From Verrucomicrobiia bacterium (lineage in GTDB: Bacteria; Verrucomicrobiota; Verrucomicrobiia; Limisphaerales; DASXHY01), in the NCBI GenBank assembly GCA_035629175.1, contig DASPIL010000106.1, positions 1 through 60,034 of the forward strand: DNA of 60,034 nucleotides. The letters run 5' to 3'. The notes below the pieces were generated by a model that saw only the letters and a list, made by a program, of their open reading frames with translations, ran no database searches and was not told the DNA's origin. The position numbers and the translations under genes were made by a program. Each line of letters starts with the position of its first letter. The first letter of the stretch is position 1. Below are positions 39,400 to 54,000 of the stretch, piece after piece.

Positions 39400-39950
39400 A
39401 ATGCTTTAACTGACTGACTGGCGGAACAGGGGGCTGGGCAGCGAGTGGGGCTTACCGAGCTCCGATGCCTAACGGACCAGACGTTGCGGGGCAACGGAGG
39501 TAGAAGGTTAGGTTGTTCGTTAACTTCTTTTCTCAGCCTCAATGAACTTCCATCCTTCGTACTGTTGCTGAAGGACAGCCTGTCTTCCAAACTGCTTCGG
39601 AGGACAGGTCCGCACACGCGGCGTTCGGGCAGCGGGAAAGATAGGCCCGGCATGCCGGGACGCAAGGGCTTTTTTCAAATCCCCTTTGCGCAGCGCTGAT
39701 CGATTGGCCATGGGTCCGAGAGTCATCTCGTGAATCTCTTTGCAGTGACGATAAAACCTCCTCGGCCCGTTCACGCCGCACTCGAGTCGAAACAGTAGCC
39801 GGAGCTCCGTCATGTTCGATCGGCGCGGGGATGAGTCTGCCGGACCGGGGTAGAATCCTGCCTTGTGAAAAAAATCACAAATTCAACTTGCCTGCTATTT
39901 TTACCGCAATTAGGTTCCCGGTGCCAGCCGCTTGGAAATGCAACGGGCTT
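39400..39950. other. rpsA-nuoB divergent regulatory region
   Basis: 551 bp between divergent rpsA and nuoB. I see no credible gene, and in particular no nuoA (no ECG-x-x-P-x-GD or FDIE-type motif in any frame). It holds a degenerate copy of the dispersed palindrome (39576-39595), a possible rpsA leader next to 39400, and the CRP-like site at 39863. Confidence 0.55.
39863..39880. promoter_or_regulatory. CRP/FNR-family operator before nuoB
   Basis: TTGTGA-A6-TCACAA is a perfect 18 bp inverted repeat that contains the full CRP consensus TGTGA-N6-TCACA. It is centred about 80 bp before the nuoB ATG and followed 8 bp later by TTGCCT, which could serve as a weak -35. A CRP/FNR-type regulator controlling complex I is a reasonable inference; no regulator gene of this family is in the window. 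Confidence 0.5.
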
Positions 39951-40463
39951 ATGCAGACTCAGACAGAAATTGGCTACAACTCGAAAATCGAAGGTGATGT
40001 CGTTGTCACCCGGGTTGATGCTGCCCTGAATTGGTTTCGAAAGAATTCCCTGTGGCCGATGCCCATGGGCCTTGCCTGTTGTGCGATCGAATTGATGGCC
40101 ACGGGCGCCAGCCGATTCGATATTTCACGCTTCGGTGCTGAGGTGATGCGGTTCTCACCGCGTCAGTCGGACGTAATGATCGTTGCGGGCACTGTGACTT
40201 ACAAAATGGCTCTGGCCGTGCGCCGCATCTACGACCAGATGGCGGAACCCAAGTGGGTCATCGCGATGGGCGCCTGTGCTTCAACCGGCGGTATGTATCG
40301 AAGCTACGCCGTCTTGCAGGGCGTCGATCGGATCCTGCCGGTGGACATCTATGTGGCGGGCTGCCCTCCACGCCCTGAGGCGCTGCTGGACGCGTTGATT
40401 CGATTGCAGAACAAAGTGGGGAAAGAGCCGATCGTCGCCACCCAGAAAAAAGTCGCGGCTTGA
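39951..40463 (+). CDS. nuoB: NADH-quinone oxidoreductase subunit B
   Basis: 170 residues from ATG 39951; the frame is open to 39831, but that extension crosses the promoter region. Ligands of the N2 4Fe-4S cluster: the CC pair in [11 protein letters not shown], the cysteine in [10 protein letters not shown] and the one in GCPPRPEAL. This cluster passes electrons to quinone in the peripheral arm of complex I. First gene of the operon here; nuoA, which normally precedes it, is absent. Confidence 0.97.
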
Positions 40464-41137
40464 TGACGGCGCTTGAACTTGCTGAGAAGTTAAAGGCTCA
40501 GTTCGGCGATCTCATCGCCGGGCCAGCGGAGTTCCGCGGAGAAATTGCCCTGCGCGTCCTGGATTCCGACCAAATCGCCCACGTATGCGGCTTCGCGAAG
40601 ATCAAGCTGGGCTTCAATTACCTCGTCGACGTGAGCAGCGTGGACAATTATGGCGACGATCCTCGTTTCACCGTGGTTTATCACCTCTATGGCATTGAGC
40701 ACCGATGCTATCTTCGACTGAAAACGGATGTTAGCGAGGAAAAGTGCGAGGTGCCGACAGTCACTGGCATATGGCGGACCGCGGATTGGCACGAGCGCGA
40801 GATTTACGACATGATGGGAATCCGATTCACGGATCACCCGGACCTTCGCCGGATCCTGATGTGGGAAGGCTATCCGTATTTCCCGTTGCGCAAGGACTTC
40901 CCCCTGGCCGGCAAGTCGAGCGACATGCCTGACATTGCTTTTAGCCGGCCCGCTCCGCTCGAAGGAGGCCCGTTCGTCACGGTTGCAGGCGGGAAAGATA
41001 CCATTTCGCGGGAACCGCGCGTTCGTATTCCTGAAACGGATTCGGTCGAGCTGAACAATCGAATCGAACGCCGCGATGACGTCCGAAAGGCGCACGGTGA
41101 ATCGTTTGGGCCCGGCCCAAAAGAACACAAATCGTAA
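40463..41137 (+). CDS. nuoC: NADH-quinone oxidoreductase subunit C
   Basis: 224 residues from ATG 40463, which overlaps the nuoB stop (TGATG). The 30 kDa-subunit domain is shown by FNYLVDVSSVDNYGDDPRF, VVYHLYGIEH and the signature WHEREIYDMMGIRFTDHPDLRRILM. The C-terminal 50 residues (after PLEGGPFVT) are a variable extension. Separate from nuoD, unlike the fused nuoCD of enterobacteria. Structural subunit of the peripheral arm. Confidence 0.96.
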   Translation: MTALELAEKLKAQFGDLIAGPAEFRGEIALRVLDSDQIAHVCGFAKIKLGFNYLVDVSSVDNYGDDPRFTVVYHLYGIEHRCYLRLKTDVSEEKCEVPTVTGIWRTADWHEREIYDMMGIRFTDHPDLRRILMWEGYPYFPLRKDFPLAGKSSDMPDIAFSRPAPLEGGPFVTVAGGKDTISREPRVRIPETDSVELNNRIERRDDVRKAHGESFGPGPKEHKS

Positions 41138-42426
41138 TGGCTGAAGTTCGAGACATTGAAATCAGGGACGCCGCCGGGACGGCTGCGGCAGCTGCGCAAA
41201 ACGCAGGCCTCGCGGATGACCTGCAGGATATGAGCGGCGAAAAGATGGTCCTCAACATGGGCCCATCGCATCCTTCGACGCATGGAGTTCTTCGCATCGT
41301 GCTCGAGCTCGACGGGGAGACGATCACGAAGGCGATGCCAGACGTGGGTTATTTGCATCGAGGCGATGAGAAGATCGCCGAGAACATGACCTACACTCAG
41401 TTCATCCCTTACACGGATCGGCTGGATTACCTTGCCCCGCTCGCGAATAACGTTGCCTACGCACTTGCGGTTGAGAAGCTCCTCGGGATCGACAAGGAAC
41501 TCCCGCTTCGATGCCAGTACATCCGCACCATCTGTGTTGAGCTGGCGCGCATTTCGTCGCATCTGCTCGGGATTGGGTGTTTCGCGATGGACGTGGGTGC
41601 GATGACCGTGTTCCTGCACACATTCACCGAGCGCGAGAAGATCTACAACCTTTGCGAAGCCCTGACGGGCGCGCGATTTACCACGACTTACACGCGCATT
41701 GGCGGGGTTTCCCGTGACACGCCTCCTGGCTGGTGTGCGGCCGTCGAGAAGTTCCTTGATGAGGTTCTCGTCAACATCGATGAAACCGAAACGTTGCTCA
41801 CGCGCAATCGGATTTGGGTGGATCGCACGCGCGATGTGGGAGTGATCTCGAAGGAGGATGCGATCGATTACGGGTTGACGGGCCCGAACCTGCGCGCCAG
41901 CGGCGTTGAATTCGACCTTCGAAAGGACCAGCCCTACCTGATCTACAACGAACTCAAGTTCGAGATTCCGATCGGCTCGGTCGGCGATTGTTACGATCGT
42001 TATCTCGTTCGCATGGAAGAAATGCGGCAGAGCGTGAAGCTGATCCGCCAATGCCTCGCGAAAATTCCTGGTGGATTCGACAATGCGTCCAGGGAGCCCG
42101 TGAATGTTTCGGATGGGAAAATCGTGTTGCCGTCCAAGGGCAAGGTGATGACAAGCATGGAAGAGTTGATCCATCATTTCATCAACGTCACCCAAGGCAT
42201 CAATGCACCTCCGGGAGAAGTGTATTTTGGACATGAAAATCCGAAGGGCGAGCTCGGCTTTTACATCAACAGCAAGGGCGGCGGCACTCCCAATCGGCTG
42301 AAGATCCGCGCCCCATCGTTTGTGAACCTCAGCATCCTTCCGCACCTGCTGCCGGGCCACATGATGAGTGATACCGTCGCGATTCTGGGATCGTTCGACT
42401 TCGTGATGGGAGAATGCGATCGATGA
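41137..42426 (+). CDS. nuoD: NADH-quinone oxidoreductase subunit D
   Basis: 429 residues; ATG 41137 overlaps the nuoC stop (TAATG). The 49 kDa-subunit signatures are LNMGPSHPSTHGVLRIVLELDG (as two adjacent stretches), VGYLHRGDEK and the C-terminal GHMMSDTVAILGSFDFVMGECDR. With NuoB it forms the quinone-binding pocket; the histidine of PSHPSTHG is the quinone ligand. The N-terminal 30 residues (Ala-rich, AAGTAAAAAQNAG) are a non-conserved leader. Confidence 0.97.
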   Translation: MAEVRDIEIRDAAGTAAAAAQNAGLADDLQDMSGEKMVLNMGPSHPSTHGVLRIVLELDGETITKAMPDVGYLHRGDEKIAENMTYTQFIPYTDRLDYLAPLANNVAYALAVEKLLGIDKELPLRCQYIRTICVELARISSHLLGIGCFAMDVGAMTVFLHTFTEREKIYNLCEALTGARFTTTYTRIGGVSRDTPPGWCAAVEKFLDEVLVNIDETETLLTRNRIWVDRTRDVGVISKEDAIDYGLTGPNLRASGVEFDLRKDQPYLIYNELKFEIPIGSVGDCYDRYLVRMEEMRQSVKLIRQCLAKIPGGFDNASREPVNVSDGKIVLPSKGKVMTSMEELIHHFINVTQGINAPPGEVYFGHENPKGELGFYINSKGGGTPNRLKIRAPSFVNLSILPHLLPGHMMSDTVAILGSFDFVMGECDR

Positions 42427-42965
42427 ACCTCGGAACCGTCACTGAACCTATTCCAAACGCATTGCGCAGCCAGCCTGGCTTCGCGATTCCAGCATCGCTT
42501 GAAGCGGAAATTGATGAGCTGATCACGCACTATCCAGTGAAACGAAGCGCGTCCCTCATGCTGCTGCACGCAGTGCAGGAGCACTTCGGATGGATTTCGC
42601 AGGAGGCGGTGGAATGGATCGCGAAGAAGCTGGAGCTGCAGCCGATCAATATCTACGAACTGGTGACCTTTTACCCGATGTTCCGTCACCAGCCGATGGG
42701 CAGGTTTCAGATCAAGGTGTGCCGCACTTTAAGCTGCGCGCTGGGTGGAGCGTATGAGCTTCACAAACATTTTTGCGAGAAGTTCGGCCTCGATCCTCAC
42801 GGCCATGGGCCGCAAACGACGAAGGACGGACGTTTTACCGTCGAATTCGTGGAGTGCCTGGCCAGTTGCGGAACGGCTCCCGTGATGATGGTCAACGATG
42901 ATTTTCACGAGGGCGTCAGCCATGCGAAAGCCGACGAAATTGTGGCTAAATGCAAGGGAGCATGA
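42423..42965 (+). CDS. nuoE: NADH-quinone oxidoreductase subunit E
   Basis: 180 residues from ATG 42423, overlapping the nuoD stop (ATGA). Thioredoxin-like 24 kDa subunit with the N1a 2Fe-2S ligands in CRTLSCALGG and CLASCGTAP. The helical N-terminus has LLHAVQEHFGWISQEAVEWIAKKL. It pairs with NuoF. Followed not directly by nuoF, but by 265 bp holding an opposite-strand tRNA and an inverted repeat. Confidence 0.97.
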   Translation: MNLGTVTEPIPNALRSQPGFAIPASLEAEIDELITHYPVKRSASLMLLHAVQEHFGWISQEAVEWIAKKLELQPINIYELVTFYPMFRHQPMGRFQIKVCRTLSCALGGAYELHKHFCEKFGLDPHGHGPQTTKDGRFTVEFVECLASCGTAPVMMVNDDFHEGVSHAKADEIVAKCKGA

Positions 42966-42985
42966 AGAGCGTGAAACATGGAAGT

Positions 42986-43059
42986 TGGCTGCCCGACATG
43001 GATTTGAACCATGACAAACAGATCCAGAGTCTGCTGTGCTACCGTTACACCATCGGGCA
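42986..43059 (-). tRNA. tRNA-Gln(CTG), antisense within the nuo operon
   Basis: The minus strand gives TGCCCGA...TCGGGCA acceptor arms, anticodon stem GCAGA/TCTGT with loop CTCTGGA (anticodon CTG), T-arm CATGG-TTCAAAT-CCATG, and an encoded GCCA at 42986-42989. All stems pair. It lies between nuoE and nuoF on the opposite strand, so nuo transcription must pass through it. Confidence 0.95.
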
Positions 43060-43132
43060 GGCCGGAGCGGGTTGTAAGCTAGACGCTTTGGCGCTGCAGT
43101 CAAGGCTGCTTCCCCGAACCGAGGCCGATTTA

Positions 43133-43209
43133 ACCGCGGAGACGCGGAGCCGCGGAGTATCAACGGCAACAGCCTGCAAATCTCCGCGCCTCCGCTACTC
43201 CGCGGTGAA
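43133..43209. repeat. Inverted repeat upstream of nuoF
   Basis: The left arm (43133-43157) is ACCGCGGAG-ACGCGGAG-CCGCGGAG, itself three near-copies of an 8 bp unit. The right arm (43180-43209) is its reverse complement with about four mismatches. The arms can form a roughly 25 bp GC-rich stem around a 22-nt loop. The nuoF ATG follows about 20 bp later, so this hairpin could affect readthrough or nuoF translation. A related element lies at 44691-44812. Confidence 0.75.
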
Positions 43210-43230
43210 CCACGTTGCATCAGATTAACA

Positions 43231-44670
43231 ATGCCGCACGAATTCAAATTGATTTTGAAGCACGCCGATGAGGCGGGTTACACGCCCGACATCGAGTGCT
43301 ATTTGCGGCACGGTGGCTATGAGGCGCTCAGGAAGGCGCTTGCGCTTCCGCTGAAGGATCTGCCCGATGGCAAGAAGGTTTCAGGGCAGGAACAGATCCG
43401 CGATGAAGTCAAAGCGTCGGGATTGCGCGGCCGCGGTGGCGCTGGTTTTTCCTGCGGCTTGAAGTGGAGTTTCGTTGATCGAAGGAGCGGGAAACCGATT
43501 TACCTGATTTGCAACGCGGACGAGTCTGAACCCGGCACATTCAAGGATCGCCAAATCATACACAAGGATCCGCATCAGTTGATCGAGGGGATGATCATCT
43601 CCTGCTACGCCAATGGCGTGAATCTCGCCTATATCTACATCCGCGGCGAAATGCCACAAGGCGCGAAGCTCCTGAACCAATGCCTGAAGGAAGCGCGCGC
43701 AAAAAATTTCCTTGGGAAGAATATCCTTGGCAGCGGCTACGACCTGGAAATCCATGTGCATCGCGGTGCAGGCGCTTACATTTGCGGCGAGGAAACCGGG
43801 CTGATCGAATCACTCGAAGGCAAGCGCGCCTATCCACGCATCAAGCCGCCGTATTTCCCCGCAGTGCTCGGGCTCTACATGTGCCCGACGATCGTCAACA
43901 ACGTCGAGACCCTGTGCAACGTGAAGCACATCGTCGATATGGGTGCGGGCGAATTTGCGAAGCTCGGGACGCCGAACAACACGGGCACGCGCATCGTCAG
44001 CCTCAGCGGCCACGTCAAGAAGCCTGGCTATTACGAGATCGAGGTGGGCAAAGCGACGATTGGCGAGTTGATCAACGATCCTGTTTTCGGCGGCGGGCTG
44101 CGTGACGGCCGCAAGCTCAAGGCAGTCATCCCGGGCGGCTCTTCGTCGAAGGTCCTGAAGGCAGGTGAGAAGTTCAAGCTCAAGCGCAAGGTGGATGGCA
44201 AGGACGTTGAGCAGGAAGTCGACATGCTCGACCTGCCTTACGATTTTGATTCACTCATCCAGGCGGGAACGATGTCAGGCTCGAGCGCGATCATTGTGAT
44301 CGATGACTCGGTCAGCGCAGTGGATGCGCTGGCGAATCTCAGTGAGTTCTACGCCCATGAGAGTTGCGGCCAGTGCACTCCCTGCCGTGAAGGATCGCTC
44401 TGGATGAGCAAGGCGCTGCACCGGCTGACGCATGGGGAAGGACGCAAGGGCGACGCGGATTATCTTGTAAAGATCGCGGACAACATCCCTGGAGGCCGAA
44501 CCATCTGCGCTTTTGGGGAAGCGTGCTCGTGGCCGGTGCAGAGTTTCGTCGGAAAATTTAAGGACGAATTTGTCGCCCGCGGTGCCGCGGACGAGGAGCG
44601 CTATGCGGCGGAACAAAAGGCCGCTGCGCCGACGAGTGAGTTGAAACTTGCGGCAAGCCCGCACCATTGA
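43231..44670 (+). CDS. nuoF: NADH-quinone oxidoreductase subunit F
   Basis: 479 residues. FMN-binding GLRGRGGAGFSCGLKWSF (about 65-82), NADH-binding GAGAYICGEETGLIESLEG, and the N3 4Fe-4S ligands ESCGQCTPCREG plus a later cysteine in ICAFGEACSWP. It is the NADH dehydrogenase subunit where electrons enter complex I. A tail of about 35 residues is Ala-rich. Both its 5' and 3' flanks carry a related inverted repeat, unlike the rest of the operon where genes mostly overlap. Confidence 0.97.
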   Translation: MPHEFKLILKHADEAGYTPDIECYLRHGGYEALRKALALPLKDLPDGKKVSGQEQIRDEVKASGLRGRGGAGFSCGLKWSFVDRRSGKPIYLICNADESEPGTFKDRQIIHKDPHQLIEGMIISCYANGVNLAYIYIRGEMPQGAKLLNQCLKEARAKNFLGKNILGSGYDLEIHVHRGAGAYICGEETGLIESLEGKRAYPRIKPPYFPAVLGLYMCPTIVNNVETLCNVKHIVDMGAGEFAKLGTPNNTGTRIVSLSGHVKKPGYYEIEVGKATIGELINDPVFGGGLRDGRKLKAVIPGGSSSKVLKAGEKFKLKRKVDGKDVEQEVDMLDLPYDFDSLIQAGTMSGSSAIIVIDDSVSAVDALANLSEFYAHESCGQCTPCREGSLWMSKALHRLTHGEGRKGDADYLVKIADNIPGGRTICAFGEACSWPVQSFVGKFKDEFVARGAADEERYAAEQKAAAPTSELKLAASPHH

Positions 44671-44690
44671 TGAGCCGAACCTTGCATATT

Positions 44691-44812
44691 CACCTCGGAG
44701 ACGCGGAGGCGCGGAGATCGGATGAGCTTACCGATAAGGTGATAGGCGCCTGCGTTAGGCGGATCGTAAATCAATTTGCGGAACTCTCCGCGTCTCCGCG
44801 TCTCCGTGGTTC
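44691..44812. repeat. Inverted repeat between nuoF and nuoG
   Basis: The left arm (44691-44717, CACCTCGGAG-ACGCGGAGG-CGCGGAG) and right arm (44784-44812, CTCTCCGCG-TCTCCGCG-TCTCCGTGG) are reverse complements with few mismatches, spaced by about 66 bp. The centre contains a further small GC hairpin (GGCGCCTGCGTTAGGCG). Same 8 bp unit (GGAGACGC) as the element at 43133. Confidence 0.75.
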
Positions 44813-44826
44813 AATCACAGCGTAAA

Positions 44827-46518
44827 ATGTTCAACGCTACAACAACCGAGACGAAGCAAACGCCGCCGCCGGTCGAAACGATCAAGGTGAAGGTGGACGG
44901 ACGGGAGGTCGATGTCCCCAAGACCACGATCGATCCCATTACAGGGAAGCCTGTGCCGACCACCATGATCCAGGCGTGCAGCGCCGTTCGCGTGGACGTG
45001 CCGCACTATTGCTATCATCCCAAGCTCCCCATCGCCGGCAACTGCCGCATGTGCCTCGTCGAGTTCGGAACGCCCGCGCTGGGGCCTGATCGCAAGCCCA
45101 TCATCAATCCCGACGGAACGCCGAAGATTGCGAAGTCACCGCGACCAGCGATCGCATGCGCGACGCCCATTTCCCCAGGAATGGAGATTTACACGAATAC
45201 TCCCGCCGTGAAGCAGATGCGGGAAGGCGTGCTCGAATCGCTGTTAATCAATCATCCGCTGGACTGCCCAATCTGCGACCAGGCCGGGGAATGCAAGCTG
45301 CAGGAATATTCGGTCGACTATGGCCAGGCCGCGAGCCGCTTTGTGGAACCCAAGGTTCACAAGCCGAAGCGCGTCGACCTTGGGCCGCGTATTGTCCTGG
45401 ACGCGGAACGCTGCATCCTTTGCACGCGCTGCATTCGCTTCACCAAGGATGTGGTTGGCGACGATGCCCTGGGCATCGTGAATCGTGGCAGCTTCAACAC
45501 CATCACTGCGTATCCGGGCAAACCTTTCGACAACAACTATACGCTGAACACGGTGGACATCTGCCCGGTCGGCGCGCTGACGTCGAAGGACTTTCGATTC
45601 AAGATGCGCGTTTGGTTCCTGAAGGAAACCAAGAGCGTCTGCACGAGTTGCGCCACGGGCTGCAACATCATCGTTGGATCGCGCAACGAGACGGTGTTCC
45701 GCTATGAGCCGCGCGAGAACGATGCGGTGAACGTCACGTGGATGTGCGACTACGGCCGGCTGAATTACAAATGGATCAATCGGCCGGATCGGCTCACTCA
45801 GGTGCTCGGACCCGGGGGGCGGGTGCTGGGATGGGCGGACGCGTTGCGGCAGATTTCGGACTTGTTGAACAGTGCGGCGCAAGGATCCGTGGCAGTGATC
45901 GCCTCGGCGCGGCAGACGAATGAAGAACTATTTCTGTTGAAGAAGCTCGCCAGCAAATTTGGCGCAATCACAGATTCGGTTCCGCGCGTCGGCGAAGGCG
46001 ATCGACTCCTCCTGAACGAGGATCGCAACCCAAATACAAACGGCGCGCGGCTGACGGGCATCTGCTTCACCGAGATGGGCGACCAGATCCCGAAAATCGC
46101 GCAGGGCATCGAAAGTGGAACCATTACGACGTTGATTGTCTTTGGTGAAGATGTGACGACGTGCGGAATTGAAGCGGCCACGCTCGGCAAGGTGCCCACG
46201 CTCATCGTGAGCGATATTCTGCCCAACGAAACGATCAGGCGTGCGACGTATTTGCTGCCTGGCTGCGCCCATGCGGAGAAGCGCGGGACGTTCACCAACA
46301 CCAAGGGCCGGGTGCAGAAGTTCATGAAAGCCATTGAGCCGCGCGGCGACGCCCGGCCTGAGTGGGAATTCCTGCATGAGCTCGTGTTGAACGTGACCAA
46401 GCAGGACGGCTTCAAGAGCATCGAAGGCCTGTTCAACCTCATGGCCCAGGAGGTTCCCGCGTTCAAGGGACTCACGTGGGCAACGCTGGGCGACACGGGA
46501 ATAACGGTGGAGATTTGA
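44827..46518 (+). CDS. nuoG: NADH-quinone oxidoreductase subunit G
   Basis: 563 residues from ATG 44827, much shorter than the 780-900 of many NuoG proteins. The N-terminal 2Fe-2S domain (PHYCYHPKLPIAGNCRMCLVE, as adjacent stretches, with the fourth ligand in IACATP), the His-Cys3 4Fe-4S motif HPLDCPICDQAGECKLQE, and the next 4Fe-4S set (CILCTRCIRF, CPVGAL) are complete. A further Cys set, KSVCTSCATGCNI, marks the start of the molybdopterin-like domain, which is reduced to about 270 residues. Electron wire of the peripheral arm. Confidence 0.96.
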   Translation: MFNATTTETKQTPPPVETIKVKVDGREVDVPKTTIDPITGKPVPTTMIQACSAVRVDVPHYCYHPKLPIAGNCRMCLVEFGTPALGPDRKPIINPDGTPKIAKSPRPAIACATPISPGMEIYTNTPAVKQMREGVLESLLINHPLDCPICDQAGECKLQEYSVDYGQAASRFVEPKVHKPKRVDLGPRIVLDAERCILCTRCIRFTKDVVGDDALGIVNRGSFNTITAYPGKPFDNNYTLNTVDICPVGALTSKDFRFKMRVWFLKETKSVCTSCATGCNIIVGSRNETVFRYEPRENDAVNVTWMCDYGRLNYKWINRPDRLTQVLGPGGRVLGWADALRQISDLLNSAAQGSVAVIASARQTNEELFLLKKLASKFGAITDSVPRVGEGDRLLLNEDRNPNTNGARLTGICFTEMGDQIPKIAQGIESGTITTLIVFGEDVTTCGIEAATLGKVPTLIVSDILPNETIRRATYLLPGCAHAEKRGTFTNTKGRVQKFMKAIEPRGDARPEWEFLHELVLNVTKQDGFKSIEGLFNLMAQEVPAFKGLTWATLGDTGITVEI

Positions 46519-46534
46519 TTCCGCGCTGAAACCC

Positions 46535-47581
46535 ATGACCTGGATCGACAATTTGGATTCGACTGCAAGTTTCGCGTTGTTCAGCGCGCTGAAAATCCTT
46601 GGCGTGTTTTCAGTGCTGATGTTCATCGTTGCGTACGCAGTATGGATTGAGCGCAAGGTTTCGGCAGCGATTCAGGATCGGATTGGCCCGAATCGCTTCG
46701 GCATTTTCGGTTTGTTGCAGCCGGCTGCAGATGCGGTGAAGGCGTTCCTCAAGGAAGACTTTACGCCAGCGCACGTGCGGAAGGTTTACTTCTGGCTCGC
46801 GCCCGCAATCGTGATGATTCCCAGCATCCTGGTTGTTGCCGTGATTCCGTTCGGATCGTATCTCGGCGAACAGAAGATGGTTATCGCGGATCTTGACGTG
46901 GGGATTCTCTACACGTTCGGCATCGTCTCTCTTGGCGTCTATGGCATTGTGCTGGCGGGTTACGCCGCCAACTCGAAGTATCCGTTCCTTGGGGGGATTC
47001 GATCGAGCGCACAAATGATCTCCTATGAAATCGCAATGGGGCTGTCGGTCGTCGCTGTGTTCCTGCTGGTCGGTGACTTGAACCTCAGCAACGTGGTGCT
47101 GTATCAGGCGCCGGGTCTTTTGGACTGGTTGATCTTCAAGCAGCCGCTGGCCTTTGTGATTTTCCTGGTGGCGGGCTTTGCAGAGACGAATCGCACGCCC
47201 TTCGATCTTCCCGAAGCCGAGCAGGAGCTGGCGGGCGGATATAATGTGGAATACAGCTCCATGAAGTTCGCACTGTTCTTCATGGGTGAATACGCGAGCG
47301 TGACGGCCATCTGCGCGCTGACCGTGACCTTGTTTTTTGGGGGCTGGAGCCTGCCGTTTGGGCCATTCAACCAGCCTGCGGACAGCATTTGGATTGGACT
47401 GGCGCACATAGGGATATTTCTGGCCAAGACGATCTTCCTGCTTTGCGTGATCGTGTGGGTGCGCTGGATGTGGCCGCGTTTCCGGTATGATCAATTGATG
47501 GATCTCGGCTGGAGGCGCTTCATCCCGCTGGCGTTGGCCAATGTGGTGCTGACAGCATTTATTTTGTGGGCTCGAAGCTAA
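46535..47581 (+). CDS. nuoH: NADH-quinone oxidoreductase subunit H
   Basis: 348 residues, eight membrane helices. Conserved stretches: AVWIERKVSAAIQDRIGPNR, KEDFTPAHVRK, ALAGYAANSKYPFLGGIRSSAQMISYE-type segment (AGYAANSKYPFLGG, SSAQMISYEIAMG), and ETNRTPFDLPEAEQELAGG. It forms part of the quinone channel and the first proton-path element at the foot of the peripheral arm. Stop overlaps nuoI (TAATG). Confidence 0.97.
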   Translation: MTWIDNLDSTASFALFSALKILGVFSVLMFIVAYAVWIERKVSAAIQDRIGPNRFGIFGLLQPAADAVKAFLKEDFTPAHVRKVYFWLAPAIVMIPSILVVAVIPFGSYLGEQKMVIADLDVGILYTFGIVSLGVYGIVLAGYAANSKYPFLGGIRSSAQMISYEIAMGLSVVAVFLLVGDLNLSNVVLYQAPGLLDWLIFKQPLAFVIFLVAGFAETNRTPFDLPEAEQELAGGYNVEYSSMKFALFFMGEYASVTAICALTVTLFFGGWSLPFGPFNQPADSIWIGLAHIGIFLAKTIFLLCVIVWVRWMWPRFRYDQLMDLGWRRFIPLALANVVLTAFILWARS

Positions 47582-48123
47582 TGATTGTTAACCGCAAAAA
47601 ACTGAATTTCTGGGAACGCCTTTACGTGCCCGCCGTCGTGGGCGGGTTCAAGGTCACCGCGCGCCACTTCTTCAAGAAGAAGGTGACGATGCAGTATCCG
47701 GAGGAGAAGTGGGTCGTGCCGCCCGGATATCGCGGAGCGCCTTACCTTGTCAAGGACCAGGAGGGAAACACCAAGTGCGTCTCCTGCCAGTTGTGCGAAT
47801 TTGTCTGTCCGCCCAAGGCCATCCGCATCACGCCTCCCGGCCCTGACGGCCAGCTGGCGGATCGCCCGAATGCCGAGAAGATGCCGAAGGAATTCGAGAT
47901 CAACATGCTTCGCTGCATCTTCTGTGGCTATTGCCAGGAAGTGTGCCCTGAGGAAGCGATCTTTCTGCAGCAGGATTATTCGTTGAACGCGGAGAGCCGC
48001 GAGGAATTGATTTACAACAAAGAGAAGCTGCTGGAACTCGGGGGCACACATGCGGGCATCCAGAAATGGAAGCACAAGGCGGAGGAAACGCAGGAGCAGG
48101 AACATTTCCCGGTGAAACCCTGA
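47581..48123 (+). CDS. nuoI: NADH-quinone oxidoreductase subunit I
   Basis: 180 residues from ATG 47581, overlapping the nuoH stop. Two 4Fe-4S ferredoxin motifs, CVSCQLCEFVCP and CIFCGYCQEVCP (clusters N6a and N6b). An amphipathic N-terminus (ERLYVPAVVGGFKVTARHFF) lies on the membrane. The C-terminal 30 residues are charged. Connects NuoG to NuoB in the electron path. Confidence 0.97.
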   Translation: MIVNRKKLNFWERLYVPAVVGGFKVTARHFFKKKVTMQYPEEKWVVPPGYRGAPYLVKDQEGNTKCVSCQLCEFVCPPKAIRITPPGPDGQLADRPNAEKMPKEFEINMLRCIFCGYCQEVCPEEAIFLQQDYSLNAESREELIYNKEKLLELGGTHAGIQKWKHKAEETQEQEHFPVKP

Positions 48124-48159
48124 CGCCTCATCGCCGCGGTCCAATTACTCAGAAGGTCA

Positions 48160-48681
48160 ATGCAGGACACATTACAATACGTTTTTTCGAGCAACGGTCT
48201 TTTCTGGCTGTTCGCCGCCCTGGCGCTGCTCTGCGGCTGCCTCGTGATCCTGAGCCGCAATCCTGTGACGAGCGCGATGTTCCTGGTCCTGACGATCGCG
48301 TCTCTTGCCGGGCTGTTCGTGCTGCTCAACGCCTTCTTTCTCGCGGCCATTCAAATCCTTGTTTATGCAGGGGCCGTCATGGTTCTGTTCCTGTTCGTCA
48401 TCATGCTCCTCGATCTTCGCGCTGAACAACGCCATCGGATCAAGCTGTTCGGAGTGATCGGCGGAGCCGTTTCTGTGGGTGCCGTCATTGCGGTTCTCCT
48501 GCGCGCGCTCTACGTCACAAAGCCGGGTGCGAACCTGGCGGCGCCAGAGGTCGTCGGCGATACCGTCGCGCTCGGCAAACTGCTTTTCACAAAGTATGTG
48601 CTGCCGTTCGAAATTGTGTCGGTGCTGCTGCTGGTCGCGATGGTGGGCGTCATTCTGTTGAGCAAAAAGGATCTCAAGTGA
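48160..48681 (+). CDS. nuoJ: NADH-quinone oxidoreductase subunit J
   Basis: 173 residues, five membrane helices; the conserved third helix region reads [31 protein letters not shown], broken here as [15 protein letters not shown] and [11 protein letters not shown]. Membrane-arm subunit with the pi-bulge helix. It starts 36 bp after nuoI and its stop overlaps nuoK (GTGA). Confidence 0.96.
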
Positions 48682-48983
48682 ACGTGGGATTGGAACATTA
48701 CCTGGCCGTCAGCGGACTATTGTTCGCACTGGGGCTGTTTGGCGTGGTGGTGCGGCGCAATGTGCTCGTGATGTACATGTGCCTCGAATTGATGTTGAAC
48801 GCCGCGAATCTCGCCCTGGTTGCGTTCTCGCGCTTCACCAACAACCTTGATGGACAGGTGTTCGTGTTTTTCATCATCACGGTTGCCGCGGCTGAGGTCG
48901 CGGTGGGATTGGCGTTGATCGTCGCGCTCTACCGCCGCAGGAACACGGCGCACGTGGAAGAACTGGCAACAATGAAGCTTTGA
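48678..48983 (+). CDS. nuoK: NADH-quinone oxidoreductase subunit K
   Basis: 101 residues from a GTG overlapping the nuoJ stop. Three membrane helices with the two conserved glutamates, one in [14 protein letters not shown] and one in [17 protein letters not shown]. MrpC-like subunit of the proton path. The C-terminal tail is [16 protein letters not shown]. Confidence 0.96.
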
Positions 48984-49029
48984 TGCGCTGGAGGAGAGAC
49001 ATGCAGCTCCGCGGTGAAGAAGAACCCGA

Positions 49030-50904
49030 ATGAAATTCGAAGCGTTACCCTGGTTGATCCTGTTCCTGCCGTTGCTGGCCGCAGCGGCGATCACTCTCTT
49101 CACGCAGAAAAATCGTGGCGTGAGCGCCGGGCTGTCCATCGGCGCGGTCGTGATCAGCTTCCTGCTCAGCGCCTTGTTCGTGAAGCTCAACGGCTTCAAT
49201 CCGCCGGCCAATGAACTTGCCGTCAACTGGCTTTCAATCGGTGACGCGCTGAGAATCGACTTCGGATTCCGCCTGGACCCCTTGAGTCTGGGAATGATCC
49301 TGATGGTCACGGGCGTTGCCGCGTTGATCCACATTTATTCGGTGGGTTACATGCACGACGATCCCGGCTTTTCTCGGTTCTTCGCGAGCCTGAGCCTGTT
49401 CACGTTCTCGATGCTGGGAATCGTGCTTTCGAACAATTTTCTGCAGATCTTCATTTTCTGGGAATTGGTGGGCGTGTCGAGTTACCTGCTGATCGGGTTC
49501 TGGTACGAGAAGGCGAGTGCCGCCGATGCGGCCAAGAAGGCCTTCATCACGAATCGGCTCGGTGACTTTGGGTTCCTGATTGGCATCCTCATTGTCTGGG
49601 CGGCGCTCGGGTCGTTGAACTTTCGACCGATCGAGCAGGCGCTGGCGGACAATCCCGAGGCCCTCGGCGCCCTTGCCACTATTGGCGGGCTGCTGATCTT
49701 CTGCGGCGCCGTTGGCAAGTCTGCGCAGTTTCCGCTGCACGTGTGGTTGCCCGACGCGATGGAGGGCCCAACGCCCGTCTCAGCGCTGATCCATGCGGCG
49801 ACAATGGTTGCTGCAGGCGTGTACATGTTGTGCCGCGTGTTTTTCGTGCTGAATGGCGAGGCGCTCCAGGTCATTGCATATGTGGGCGGTTTTACAGCAT
49901 TGCTCGCGGCGCTGATTGCACTCCAGCAGAACGACATCAAACGAATTCTGGCGTACTCGACGCTTTCACAACTGGGTTACATGGTCATGGCAGTCGGGTT
50001 GGGCGGACCCACACCCGCGATGTTCCATCTGACAACGCACGCGTTCTTCAAGGCGCTCCTGTTTCTCGGCTCGGGTTCAGTGATCCTGGCAATGCATCAC
50101 GAACAGGACATCTGGCAGATGGGCGCACTGCGAAAGAAAACGCCTGTGACGTTTTGGACATTCATGGTGGGCACGCTCGCCCTCGCCGGCCTGTGGCCGC
50201 TGAGCGGGTTTTTCAGCAAGGACTCCATTCTGGCGCTCGCGTATCACGAACGCAATTACCTGCTGTTCGGCGTGGCTGTCTTTGTGGCATTCCTTACCAC
50301 GTTCTACATGTTCCGCCTCGTGTTCGTGGTGTTCTTCAGCTCTGCCAAGTCGAAGCATGCGGAACACGCGCATGAATCGCCGGGAGTAATGACCTGGCCG
50401 CTCCGTCTGCTGGCGGTTCTCAGCGTCATCGGCGGGTTCATTGGAATTGAGGCGCTGTTTGCAGGTCAGCTGGCAGCCGACGCAAGCGAGCATCCCCACG
50501 GTTGGGCACAGCTCGTTTATCCATTCCAGCATGCGCCCGTCGCGGCGGCGTCGGGTCTCGTTGTGTTTGCGCTGGGATTGCTCGCAGCATGGGCCCTGTA
50601 TGGAAAGGGCGGCAAGGATCCGCTGCCCGAAAAGCTGGGCGCGCTTTCGCGGGCCATGCGGGATCGTTTTTATTTCGACGAACTATACGAAGCCACCGTC
50701 GTTCGCATGCACGATACCCTTGCAGCGATTGCCGGGTGGTTTGATCGCTGGATCATTGATGGCTTCGGCATTGGATTGATCCGGGGTGGAACGGATTTTG
50801 CCGGGCGGGCGCTGAGGCTTGCGCAAACCGGAAATCTCCAGACGTATGCGCTGCTGCTGGCGCTGGGCGTAGCCGTGCTGCTGGTGGTGGTCCTGGCGTC
50901 ATGA
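49030..50904 (+). CDS. nuoL: NADH-quinone oxidoreductase subunit L
   Basis: 624 residues, antiporter-like subunit at the distal end of the membrane arm. Conserved: DPLSLGMILMVTGVAALIHIYSVGYM-type opening, FWELVGVSSYLLIGFW with the key glutamate, GKSAQFPLHVWLPDAMEGPTPVSALIHAATMVAAGVYM region (lysine in VGKSAQFP), and LAYSTLSQLGYM. The lateral helix and a last anchor are in the C-terminal 130 residues. Begins 46 bp after nuoK; 10 bp before nuoM. Confidence 0.97.
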   Translation: MKFEALPWLILFLPLLAAAAITLFTQKNRGVSAGLSIGAVVISFLLSALFVKLNGFNPPANELAVNWLSIGDALRIDFGFRLDPLSLGMILMVTGVAALIHIYSVGYMHDDPGFSRFFASLSLFTFSMLGIVLSNNFLQIFIFWELVGVSSYLLIGFWYEKASAADAAKKAFITNRLGDFGFLIGILIVWAALGSLNFRPIEQALADNPEALGALATIGGLLIFCGAVGKSAQFPLHVWLPDAMEGPTPVSALIHAATMVAAGVYMLCRVFFVLNGEALQVIAYVGGFTALLAALIALQQNDIKRILAYSTLSQLGYMVMAVGLGGPTPAMFHLTTHAFFKALLFLGSGSVILAMHHEQDIWQMGALRKKTPVTFWTFMVGTLALAGLWPLSGFFSKDSILALAYHERNYLLFGVAVFVAFLTTFYMFRLVFVVFFSSAKSKHAEHAHESPGVMTWPLRLLAVLSVIGGFIGIEALFAGQLAADASEHPHGWAQLVYPFQHAPVAAASGLVVFALGLLAAWALYGKGGKDPLPEKLGALSRAMRDRFYFDELYEATVVRMHDTLAAIAGWFDRWIIDGFGIGLIRGGTDFAGRALRLAQTGNLQTYALLLALGVAVLLVVVLAS

Positions 50905-50914
50905 ATCGTTTGCG

Positions 50915-52516
50915 ATGACAACACTGAGTTACATTTTCCTCCTGCCCCTGCTGGCTGCGATCGTGCTGGCGTTTGTGCCGCGAAACTTCGCGGTGATCAT
51001 GCGCCTTGTTGCCGTCGTTGCGACAGGCCTTTCAGCGCTGCTTGCCGTAAAGATGTTCTGGCAATTCGATGCGCAGCAGAGCGGATATCAGTTCGTCACC
51101 ACCATCCCGTGGCTGGGCGCGGAGTCATTGGGGCTTGCATGCCGCCTGGGCGTGGATGGCATCAACGTTGGATTGGTGCTGATGGGTGCGATCGTGGCGT
51201 TTGCGGCCGCGTGCTGCGCGTGGGATATCAAAATCCGCGAGAAGGAGTTTTACATTCTCCTGCTGATCATGGCAGGCGGCATTCTCGGTGCATTCGCATC
51301 GCTCGACCTGTTCTTCTTCTATTTCTTCCACGAACTGGCGCTTGTTCCGACGTTCATCATGATCGGGTTGTGGGGTCGCGGTGAACGAAAGAATTATGCG
51401 ACGTTCCAGATCACGCTTTATCTGAGCGTCGGCGCGCTGGTTGCGCTCGTCGGGTTGATCGCACTTTACCTGCAGCTCCCCCTGGAAGCGCGGACGTTCG
51501 ATATTCCAGCGCTCACCCGCTATTTCGTTGAGAACCCAATGGCGCGCTCGGCGCAAAGCTTCATCTTCCCGCTGCTGTTATTTGGGTTCGGCGTTCTCGT
51601 TTCGCTCTGGCCGTTTCACACCTGGGCGCCAATCGGTTACGCCGCCGCCCCAACCGCAACCGCCATGCTGCATGCAGGCGTTCTCAAGAAGTTCGGGTTG
51701 TACGGCTTGATCCGCATTGCGCTGCCGCTGATGCCTGACGCGGCGCAAAGCTGGATGCACGTGCTCGCGTGGCTCTGCCTGGGCAATCTCGTTTACTGCG
51801 GGTGGGTGGCGATGCGGCAGAAGGATTTCAACTGGCTTGTTGGCTACAGCAGCGTGGCGCACATGGGCTTCATTTTCCTTGGGATCGCATCCCTCAATGT
51901 GGTGGGAGTCACGGGCGCGGTGCTGGTGATGGTGGCGCACGGGTTCCTCGCGGCGCTCACGTTCGGCTTGACTGGATATATCCACCAACAGACCGGCACG
52001 CTTGAGATTGGGCAGCTTGGCGGGTTGCTCCGAAAGCTGCCATTTATTGGAAGCGCATTGATCATGGCCGCGTTCGCGGGTTGCGGCTTGCCCGGCTTTG
52101 CCAACTTTGCGGGTGAGGTCACCGTGTTTTTCGGCCTCTGGCAGGAGCCATCGCTGCGGACGATTGCGGTCCTCGCTTGCTGGGGAGCGTTGATCATCGG
52201 CGCCATCTACATGCTGCGCGCGGTTCGAAATGCCCTTCATGCTGAAGTTCCCGAACAATGGGCGAACGTGACGGATGCGCCGCACATCTGGCGCAAGCTG
52301 CCGTTCATCGTCCTGTTATTCTGCTTGTTGCTGTTTGGAATTTTGCCACGGCTGCTTACGGACAAGATCACGCCCAGTGTTTCGCGAATCGTTCAAATGG
52401 CGCGGCCTGCATCCATTCCACAAGCCGCGGAGACGGACGCCGGCTTGGCAAGCGCCGCGAGTGCAGGCACAGGTGCGGGATCCAATGGGACCCCTGCGGC
52501 AACGGAAAACCAATGA
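50915..52516 (+). CDS. nuoM: NADH-quinone oxidoreductase subunit M
   Basis: 533 residues, 14 predicted membrane helices. Antiporter-like motifs: FFYFFHELALVPTFIMIGLWG with the conserved glutamate, SLWPFHTWAPIGYAAAPTATAMLHAGVLKKFGLYG region, and VGYSSVAHMGFIFLG. The hydrophilic C-terminal 45 residues are Ala/Gly/Thr-rich and not conserved. Its stop overlaps nuoN (ATGA). Confidence 0.97.
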   Translation: MTTLSYIFLLPLLAAIVLAFVPRNFAVIMRLVAVVATGLSALLAVKMFWQFDAQQSGYQFVTTIPWLGAESLGLACRLGVDGINVGLVLMGAIVAFAAACCAWDIKIREKEFYILLLIMAGGILGAFASLDLFFFYFFHELALVPTFIMIGLWGRGERKNYATFQITLYLSVGALVALVGLIALYLQLPLEARTFDIPALTRYFVENPMARSAQSFIFPLLLFGFGVLVSLWPFHTWAPIGYAAAPTATAMLHAGVLKKFGLYGLIRIALPLMPDAAQSWMHVLAWLCLGNLVYCGWVAMRQKDFNWLVGYSSVAHMGFIFLGIASLNVVGVTGAVLVMVAHGFLAALTFGLTGYIHQQTGTLEIGQLGGLLRKLPFIGSALIMAAFAGCGLPGFANFAGEVTVFFGLWQEPSLRTIAVLACWGALIIGAIYMLRAVRNALHAEVPEQWANVTDAPHIWRKLPFIVLLFCLLLFGILPRLLTDKITPSVSRIVQMARPASIPQAAETDAGLASAASAGTGAGSNGTPAATENQ

Positions 52517-54000
52517 ATCTTTCTTCGATCAGTCTCGAACTTTCAGTGGTCGGCCTCGGCCTGGTAATGCTGCTGGCCGATCTGTGGATGCCGCGCGAGC
52601 GCAAGTACCTGCTGGGTTACGGCGCCGCAGCTGCGCTGGGAGTAATGCTCCTTGTCAATGTTTCGGGTTGCGGCCTGTGCACAATCGACGGCTCTTCGTT
52701 CGGGGGAATGTTCATCCAGGACAGCCTTTCGCTCTTCTTCAAGCGGCTGTTTCTGATGTCCGCCATTTTGATCCTGATCATTGCTGTGGAGTTCTCCGAC
52801 TGCCTTGCATCCGCGGTGTCGGAGTACTACGCGCTCATGGTCTTTGCGCTGGCGGGAATGCTGTTCGCTGCGTCGGCCAACAACTTCGCCCTGCTGTTTG
52901 TCTCGCTGGAACTGATCACGGTGACGTTCTATGTGCTGACGAGTTTTCAGCGCGGACGCCAGGTGTCGCTCGAGGCGGGCGTCAAGTATCTCATCATCGG
53001 CGCACTCTCCTCGGCGTTCATGGTGTTTGGAATTGCGCTCGTGTCGGGGATTTCGGGCAAGATGAACTTCGCCGAGCTTTCAGCCGTGGCTTCCCAGTTC
53101 AGTGACAACAAAGTTTTCCTCATTGGCATTCTTTTCGTCCTCGTCGGGCTTGGTTTCAAGATTGCCGTGGTTCCGTTCCAGATCTGGGCGCCTGACGTCT
53201 ATCAAGGAGCCCCGACACCCACCACTGCGTTTCTTGCGATTGGCTCCAAGGCTGCGGGATTCGTGCTGCTGCTTCGATTCTTGTTTGCTGCGGTTCCCGC
53301 CATTACCGCGCAATGGGCGAATATTCTGATCGTGATTGCGGCGGCAACGATCTTGTATGGCAATCTCGGCGCGCTCCCCCAGCGGAACGTGAAGCGCCTC
53401 CTGGGCTACTCAAGCATCGCCCATGCAGGGTACCTTCTGATGGGCGTGGCAGCCCTCAACACGGCGGGACTCGCAGCCATCCTTTATTACCTCGGCGGGT
53501 ATCTTTTCACCGTGATCGCCGCGTTTGCAGTAATCAGCGTGGTCATGCGGAATCTGGAATCGGAAGACATCTCTGCATTTGGTGGATTGAATCAGCGTTC
53601 GCCCCTGCTGGCCGCAACGTTGACGATTTCCATGGTATCACTCGCGGGTATTCCTCCGCTGGCAGGGTTTTTCGGAAAGTTCCTGCTGCTGAAAGCCGTG
53701 GTGGAACAGGGCGCGAGCAACACTGGGTATTACGTTCTGGCGTTTATCGCGATGGCAGGCGTGGTGATGTCTCTGTACTACTATTTCAACGTGGTGCGAG
53801 CGGCCTACTGGGGTTCGGCTTCCAATGACACATCGCCAATCACCCTATCGATGCCGATGCGAGTGACGCTGTATGTCTGCATCGCGGGCGTGTTTTTCCT
53901 TGGCCTGGTTCCGGGCCCGCTGATGAAGCAAACCCGGCCCGCTGCCGAAGTTCTTGAAGTCCCAACTGCGGCCGTTGTCCGAGCGGACGCAGCGCTGTGA
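52513..54000 (+). CDS. nuoN: NADH-quinone oxidoreductase subunit N
   Basis: 495 residues from ATG 52513 (coupled to nuoM by ATGA). Third antiporter-like subunit: FVSLELITVTFYVLTSF with the glutamate, VPFQIWAPDVYQGAPTPTTAFLA, LLGYSSIAHAGYLLMG, and SLAGIPPLAGFFGKFLLLK. Last gene of the operon, ending 16 bp before the convergent trpE stop. Confidence 0.97.
   Translation: MNLSSISLELSVVGLGLVMLLADLWMPRERKYLLGYGAAAALGVMLLVNVSGCGLCTIDGSSFGGMFIQDSLSLFFKRLFLMSAILILIIAVEFSDCLASAVSEYYALMVFALAGMLFAASANNFALLFVSLELITVTFYVLTSFQRGRQVSLEAGVKYLIIGALSSAFMVFGIALVSGISGKMNFAELSAVASQFSDNKVFLIGILFVLVGLGFKIAVVPFQIWAPDVYQGAPTPTTAFLAIGSKAAGFVLLLRFLFAAVPAITAQWANILIVIAAATILYGNLGALPQRNVKRLLGYSSIAHAGYLLMGVAALNTAGLAAILYYLGGYLFTVIAAFAVISVVMRNLESEDISAFGGLNQRSPLLAATLTISMVSLAGIPPLAGFFGKFLLLKAVVEQGASNTGYYVLAFIAMAGVVMSLYYYFNVVRAAYWGSASNDTSPITLSMPMRVTLYVCIAGVFFLGLVPGPLMKQTRPAAEVLEVPTAAVVRADAAL

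Follow-up and report, generated by a model that had tools for sequence, protein, structure and literature searches.

Which protein controls the genes of respiratory complex I in a verrucomicrobial genome whose nuo operon is preceded by a perfect palindrome? The window analysed here, a stretch of 60,034 nucleotides (nt) from a genome of 5.41 Mb (G000), carries TTGTGAAAAAAATCACAA at 39863-39880, an exact TTGTGA-N6-TCACAA, with a gap of 70 nt between the palindrome and the ATG at 39951, most likely the start codon of nuoB. A sequence-only reading had described this palindrome, remarked on its promoter-like distance from nuoB, and proposed that a protein of the CRP/FNR family controls the whole complex I operon through it, the E. 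coli CRP site being TGTGA-N6-TCACA. The palindrome and its spacing were borne out, and control of the whole operon is plausible, but the regulator named was the wrong one: judging from comparative sequence evidence, the palindrome is very probably an operator at which the NAD(H)-sensing repressor Rex would control nuoBCDEFGHIJKLMN. The observations behind this assignment are the site itself, its conservation, its linkage to a Rex protein (hereafter Rex1), the DNA- and NAD-contact residues of Rex1, promoter-like elements, and further sites near atp and cox genes. The host phylum is Verrucomicrobiota, since nearly all of the 80 nearest named carriers of nuoB retained in the search bear that label, those closer to the window including Limisphaerales and subdivision 3.

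Within a single genome, the statistics for the palindrome are only moderate. It is the only place in the window that matches TTGTGA-N6-TCACAA with 0 or 1 mismatch, while at up to 2 mismatches the window holds 2 matches against 1.85 expected from shuffles. The genome scan that the sequence-only reading had recommended found 2 exact matches in the 5.41 Mb and 12 places at up to 1 mismatch, as compared to 4 for a reversed control pattern. The second exact match (contig C66) lies inside an open reading frame (ORF) that, judged from its sequence, resembles an aldo/keto reductase, and is probably due to chance. Six of the remaining places at up to 1 mismatch were inspected: the one on C25 is a site before the atp genes, those on C66, C71 and C96 (196286) fall within ORFs, the one on C103 adjoins an ORF start, and the one at C46:62773 precedes a small lipoprotein-like gene; the window site and places on C51, C67, C76, C80 and C91 make up the rest of the 12. 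We nevertheless consider the palindrome real, because 95 of the 126 genomes of the order with readable upstream DNA also carry it in front of nuoB.

This recurrence was followed in two sets of relatives, the first comprising 38 supplied genomes, every one from another family of the same order, and the larger one 126 genomes of the order with a completeness of at least 88%, a close nuoB being found in 118. Operator counts refer to the 126 genomes with readable DNA upstream of nuoB, drawn from the larger set together with genomes from the first, and a site was accepted at up to 2 mismatches to TTGTGA-N6-TCACAA and at most 300 nt before nuoB. Second nuoB copies in G010 (C62) and G008 (C103), both without a site, were left out of the counts, as was G124 with its 7 bases of upstream DNA. 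A palindrome with an A-rich centre had already appeared at a nearly constant place in many of the 30 nuoB loci first compared. The idea that the palindrome is coding sequence, for which there is an in-frame ATG at 39831 upstream, was rejected: between the start of the site and the start of the NuoB match the relatives have anything from 65 to 235 nt (75-105 nt in 83 of the 95), in all three frames, and the site is kept throughout. Among named nuoB loci, which include other verrucomicrobial lineages, a site was present in 24 of the 79 that could be read, and Roseibacillus persicicus and several others of these 24 have a symmetric one.

The shape of the site points to Rex. The published Rex consensus is TTGTGAAN4TTCACAA (PMC5355995, PMC2883068), and, because this sequence contains the CRP half-sites, the match of the window site to TGTGA-N6-TCACA does not discriminate between the two regulators. 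The base after TTGTGA does bear on the question, since it is A in all 95 sites without having been required by the search, in agreement with the Rex consensus; this supports Rex but provides no strict rule, because in Streptomyces a footprinted Rex site may have another base there in one of its halves. The half distal to nuoB is an exact TTGTGAA in 95/95 sites, the window included, while the proximal half shows 89 mismatches to TTCACAA over 665 positions, the most conserved positions of the operator being TTGTGA and CAC. In the window, the proximal half reads ATCACAA and deviates at its first position, which leaves a single mismatch to TTGTGAA-N4-TTCACAA at position 12, so the site has the 18-bp Rex operator form with one imperfect half. 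Across the Rex1-positive genomes, 42 of the 90 sites are identical to the window site over all 18 bases.

The genome of the window encodes a Rex with nearly all of the residues for such binding. Rex1 (C58:99232-99873, 214 aa), whose gene lies directly downstream of a gene that we named lpxB-like from its sequence, matches the Thermotoga maritima Rex structures 5ZZ5 and 7WB3 (E 1.1e-44), keeps 11 of the 12 T. maritima DNA-contact residues, and has both the GxGxxG motif and the nicotinamide-stacking tyrosine. It clears the cut-offs of six NCBIfam Rex models, five of equivalog and one of subfamily type. A paralogue (C107:112388-112951; L141, L237) that is 36% identical to Rex1 passes two and one, respectively, and carries GRPKLGF in its wing where Rex1 has GTRGLGY. 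Its gene adjoins one that resembles a pyruvate carboxylase/oxaloacetate decarboxylase subunit, and in G034 ~640 bp separate the paralogue from a second nuoB for complex I. Across genomes, PF06971 was detected in 28/39 of the first set and 95/126 of the larger one, and Rex1 was distinguished from the paralogue (34-39%) by full-length comparison, with at least 60% identity or pieces thereof counting as Rex1. Six genomes with Rex1 in pieces were scored as present (G036, G053, G071, G075, G085 and G091), the status of six others relied on the PF06971 match (G003, G009, G023, G027, G031 and G033), and 11 Rex-negative genomes were assigned by elimination.

The site follows Rex1 closely. It is present in 90/90 Rex1-positive genomes, in 0/4 that have only the paralogue and in 5/32 that have neither (5/36 without Rex1), an association with a Fisher p of 1.3e-24, uncorrected for phylogeny. 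The differing wing of the paralogue is consistent with its apparent failure to maintain the site. Rex1 and the site also vary together within families: in f9, G093 has Rex1 and site while G008, G057, G077, G114 and G132 have neither; in f35, the same holds for G085 (Rex1 in pieces) versus G034 and G065; and in f48, for G071 (Rex1 in pieces) versus G047 and G088. On a nuoBCD tree of the 35 of 38 genomes with nuoB, which is weakly resolved and contains some nuoC and nuoD calls that look wrong (long branches of G028 and G013), 6 changes of Rex1 are needed, at least 3 of them forced by supported branches, along with 5 changes of the operator.

Immediately downstream of the palindrome, the window contains promoter-like elements:

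39863..39880, forward strand: predicted Rex operator, TTGTGAAAAAAATCACAA, conserved before nuoB in every Rex1-positive genome
39888..39893, forward strand: putative -35 element, TTGCCT, separated from the operator by 7 nt; a TTG lies 3-12 nt past the operator in 95/95 sites
39911..39916, forward strand: putative -10 element, TAGGTT, spaced 17 nt from the -35; a loose TANNN lies at 16-18 nt in 84/95 sites, a count made without a shuffle control

With these elements, transcription would start near 39923 and the operator would be centred at about -51.5. A strict form of the promoter (TTGCNN-N16-18-TAGNT; shuffle rate 0.9%) occurs in 34/90 genomes with Rex1 and operator and in 16/28 with neither, suggesting that the promoter can outlast the operator, as one would sooner expect of a repressor site than of an activator site. 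By analogy with Rex biochemistry elsewhere, we infer binding of Rex1, its release by NADH and the direction of control. When NAD+ is plentiful, a Rex1 dimer would occupy the operator next to the nuoB -35, hinder RNA polymerase at the -35 region and keep nuoBCDEFGHIJKLMN low; when NADH accumulates, Rex1 would leave, complex I would be made, and NADH would be re-oxidised.

The original proposal, that a CRP-type protein binds the site and activates nuo, draws on the exact half-site match and on the presence in G000 of one CRP/FNR-type transcription factor (C46:60028-60288; PF00027 and HTH_Crp_2), an encoded family member having been a check set by the sequence-only reading; a site with 1 mismatch lies ~2.5 kb from the gene of this factor. 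We consider it very unlikely all the same. The recognition helix of the factor, ISETFSRTLGKF, carries E..SR, and by the rule that FNR helices have E..SR and CRP helices RE...R it appears FNR-like rather than CRP-like, so that the half-sites and spacing of the E. coli CRP site are shared here while the CRP recognition residues are missing from the sole CRP/FNR factor detected. The protein stayed below the cut-off of every NCBIfam model that it matched (CRP, 59.3 of 266 bits; FNR, 75.9 of 228; best, FtrB, 95.5 of 211). FNR sites have the form TTGAT-N4-ATCAA, and the TTGTGA...TCACAA of the window is not an FNR site. The distribution argues in the same direction: cNMP-domain proteins (PF00027) were found in 38/39 genomes whether the site is present or absent, the site is missing from 31/36 genomes without Rex1, and G020 (95% complete) has Rex1 and a perfect site with no PF00027 match detected, so the site does not require a cNMP-type protein. 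Usual CRP positions are -41.5 or -61.5, which makes the predicted centre at -51.5 unusual for CRP. Co-occurrence, the FNR-like helix of the sole candidate and G020 together led us to reject the CRP/FNR family as the regulator.

A related reading, in which Rex is the main regulator but can share the overlapping sequence with a protein of the CRP/FNR family, is just as improbable. The CRP half-sites are indeed contained in the Rex consensus, and in Staphylococcus aureus the Crp/Fnr-family protein ArcR bound in vitro upstream of the Rex-controlled ldh1 (PMC2883068). Yet the four cNMP-domain proteins of G000 include no CRP-type recognition helix (RE...R) in their sole CRP/FNR factor, the others being a histidine kinase (by Pfam) and, from their sequences, an MscS-type channel-like and a cation/proton antiporter-like protein, and across genomes the site is lost along with Rex1 while cNMP proteins persist. 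Slighter still is the chance that the A-rich stretch acts chiefly as an UP element of the promoter, or as a structural A-tract, instead of as an operator. Its A-rich core just upstream of the -35 and its preferred orientation would suit such a role, but the most conserved positions, TTGTGA and CAC, are not needed by an UP element. Moreover, the A-tract is gone in the 16 no-operator upstream regions that keep the strict promoter, where blocks 10-50 nt ahead of the -35 have an AT content of 33-42% and the final 25 nt hold no run of A or T longer than 5; since it was lost together with the operator, the A-tract is not an independent promoter element.

The predicted assignment to Rex gains further support from sites elsewhere in these genomes. 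The symmetric consensus TTGTGAAANNTTTCACAA occurs in 51/126 genomes, 50 of them Rex1-positive, and the reversed control pattern in 1. Neighbouring genes were read at a selection of 37 loci, fewer than the 51 genomes and some of them carrying a looser pattern; 23 had the same small secreted protein gene nearby, 4 atpB, 2 nuoB and 4 an aminotransferase-like gene. In 6 of the 11 longer regions read (20 such regions in all), the secreted protein gene heads ctaA-ctaB-cox genes, and in G046, the sole cox operon checked by Pfam, the order is CtaA, UbiA-type CtaB, CoxI, CoxIII, CoxII and SCO1. In G000 itself, the atp site on C25 reads TTGTGAAGATTTTCACGA and lies 45 nt before the first possible atpB start. 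The neighbours thus include the NADH-related and respiratory genes expected of Rex (nuo, atp and cox), and some symmetric sites are without such a neighbour.

Several side observations concern these additional sites. In those aa3 oxidase operons that were read, the Rex-type site adjoins the gene of the small secreted protein (L369:796-1506, with relatives in 22 other loci), which gave a CarboxypepD_reg match below the Pfam cut-off. In G020 (L333:1302-1976 and 2355-2372), a second perfect site lies ~380 nt before a multihaem cytochrome gene that appears ActA-like from its sequence, and G038 (L114) has a Rex-type site upstream of an ActA-like multihaem cytochrome gene; ActA we take to belong to alternative complex III. 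In G001 (L372:3089-7377), a symmetric Rex-type site is followed by a gene and then by an ORF that resembles a molybdopterin oxidoreductase, and in G121 (L377:1-3181) a 1060-aa ORF that resembles Cas9-type proteins lies ~630 bp from a symmetric Rex-type site.

A number of points weigh against Rex control as proposed here. Three NCBIfam Rex models are passed by the paralogue as well, so which of the two proteins binds cannot be read from the names of the models. The proximal half is off consensus at its first base in 72/95 sites, and the converse polarity was never seen; an imperfect half does not contradict Rex, as it is observed in footprinted Streptomyces sites, and the odd part is the fixed direction. 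The strict promoter is found in 0/4 paralogue-only genomes and in only 34/90 with Rex1, and a centre near -51.5 lies further upstream than the footprint of Streptomyces avermitilis nuoA1 (-42 to -16; PMC5355995). The site is also present in five genomes in which no Rex1 was detected (G030, G042, G099, G101 and G120). In G099, G101 and G120, Rex1 was likely missed through an assembly gap, because every other sampled member of their families is Rex1-positive (6/6, 6/6 and 4/4); for G030 and G042, no sampled relative in their families shows a Rex1 missed by assembly. The genomes without a site cluster by family (f16 with 8 of 31, f9 with 5, f12 with 3) and are not independent, and the nuoBCD tree provides 3 supported independent pairs, 2.8 of them concordant on average, too few for significance. 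Finally, 5 of the 11 longer regions lack cox genes, the symmetric site falling inside an ORF in some, and for G038 (76% complete) there is no Rex hit despite a symmetric site elsewhere.

The operon that the predicted operator precedes (within 39831-54000) begins with nuoB and has no nuoA, and its genes run as follows:

39951..40463, forward strand: nuoB, first gene, 170 aa, in an ORF open from 39831; PF01058, with NCBIfam NF011390 and TIGR01957 above cut-off
40460..41137, forward strand: nuoC; PF00329
41137..42426, forward strand: nuoD; PF00346
42414..42965, forward strand: nuoE; PF01257
43231..44670, forward strand: nuoF; PF01512, PF10589
44776..46518, forward strand: nuoG; PF22117, PF10588, PF00384
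46535..47581, forward strand: nuoH; PF00146
47566..48123, forward strand: nuoI; Fer4 families, named from position
48160..48681, forward strand: nuoJ; PF00499
48678..48983, forward strand: nuoK; PF00420
49030..50904, forward strand: nuoL; PF00361, PF00662
50915..52516, forward strand: nuoM; PF00361, named from position
52258..54000, forward strand: nuoN; PF00361, named from position, coordinates being ORF limits

The true start of nuoN is probably further in, because its ORF overlaps nuoM. Two copies of nuoA are found on C96 of the same genome (160682-160972 and 253657-253962), and only one of them lies next to a second nuoB for complex I (C96:161022).

What might the directional form of the nuo operator mean? 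A tentative and rather unlikely reading of these sequences is that in Limisphaerales-like Verrucomicrobiota Rex serves as a single NADH-gated switch over the respiratory chain (complex I, aa3 oxidase, ATP synthase and, in some genomes, alternative complex III), with a directional nuo operator that would make complex I its most sensitive target. If so, less NADH would suffice to free the directional nuo operator than the symmetric sites of cox and atp. Working Rex sites with one imperfect half are already on record, which lowers the odds of this reading. With the Rex operator as predicted, a specific redox sensor can be assigned to the control of respiratory genes in Verrucomicrobiota. Furthermore, palindromes of CRP consensus before respiratory operons can be Rex operators, and co-occurrence with rex separates the two. 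In the literature searched, most subscription papers being outside its scope, we found no report of Rex in Verrucomicrobiota; one paper returned as a candidate (PMC5615132) was discarded, 'Rex' there being only an author's first name.

Rex control of nuo and atp is already known in Streptomyces. In S. avermitilis, Rex represses nuo, atp and cyd (nuoA1-N1, atpIBEFHAGDC and cydA1B1CD), and NADH reduces its DNA binding (PMC5355995). The likeness extends to the consensus, TTGTGAANNNNTTCACAA, to nuo and atp among the targets, and to the footprinted nuoA1 and atpI sites, which also have one imperfect half (PMC5355995). The differences lie in the details: the nuoB sites here mostly have an A-rich core and an imperfect half that is always promoter-proximal, the site here lies upstream of the putative -35 whereas in S. 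avermitilis it overlaps the -35, the oxidase sites here head aa3 operons rather than cyd, and rex here follows an lpxB-like gene instead of accompanying hem genes. The S. aureus Rex site, TTGTGAAW4TTCACAA, shares the 18-bp length, the outer bases and the A/T centre, although Rex there represses anaerobically induced genes, while the neighbours here are respiratory-chain genes (PMC2883068). In the T. maritima Rex-operator complex 7WB3, the counterpart of Rex1 in 11 of 12 DNA-contact residues, the right half of the operator reads ATCACAA as in the window, whereas the left half is TTGAGAA there and TTGTGAA here (PMC8836258).
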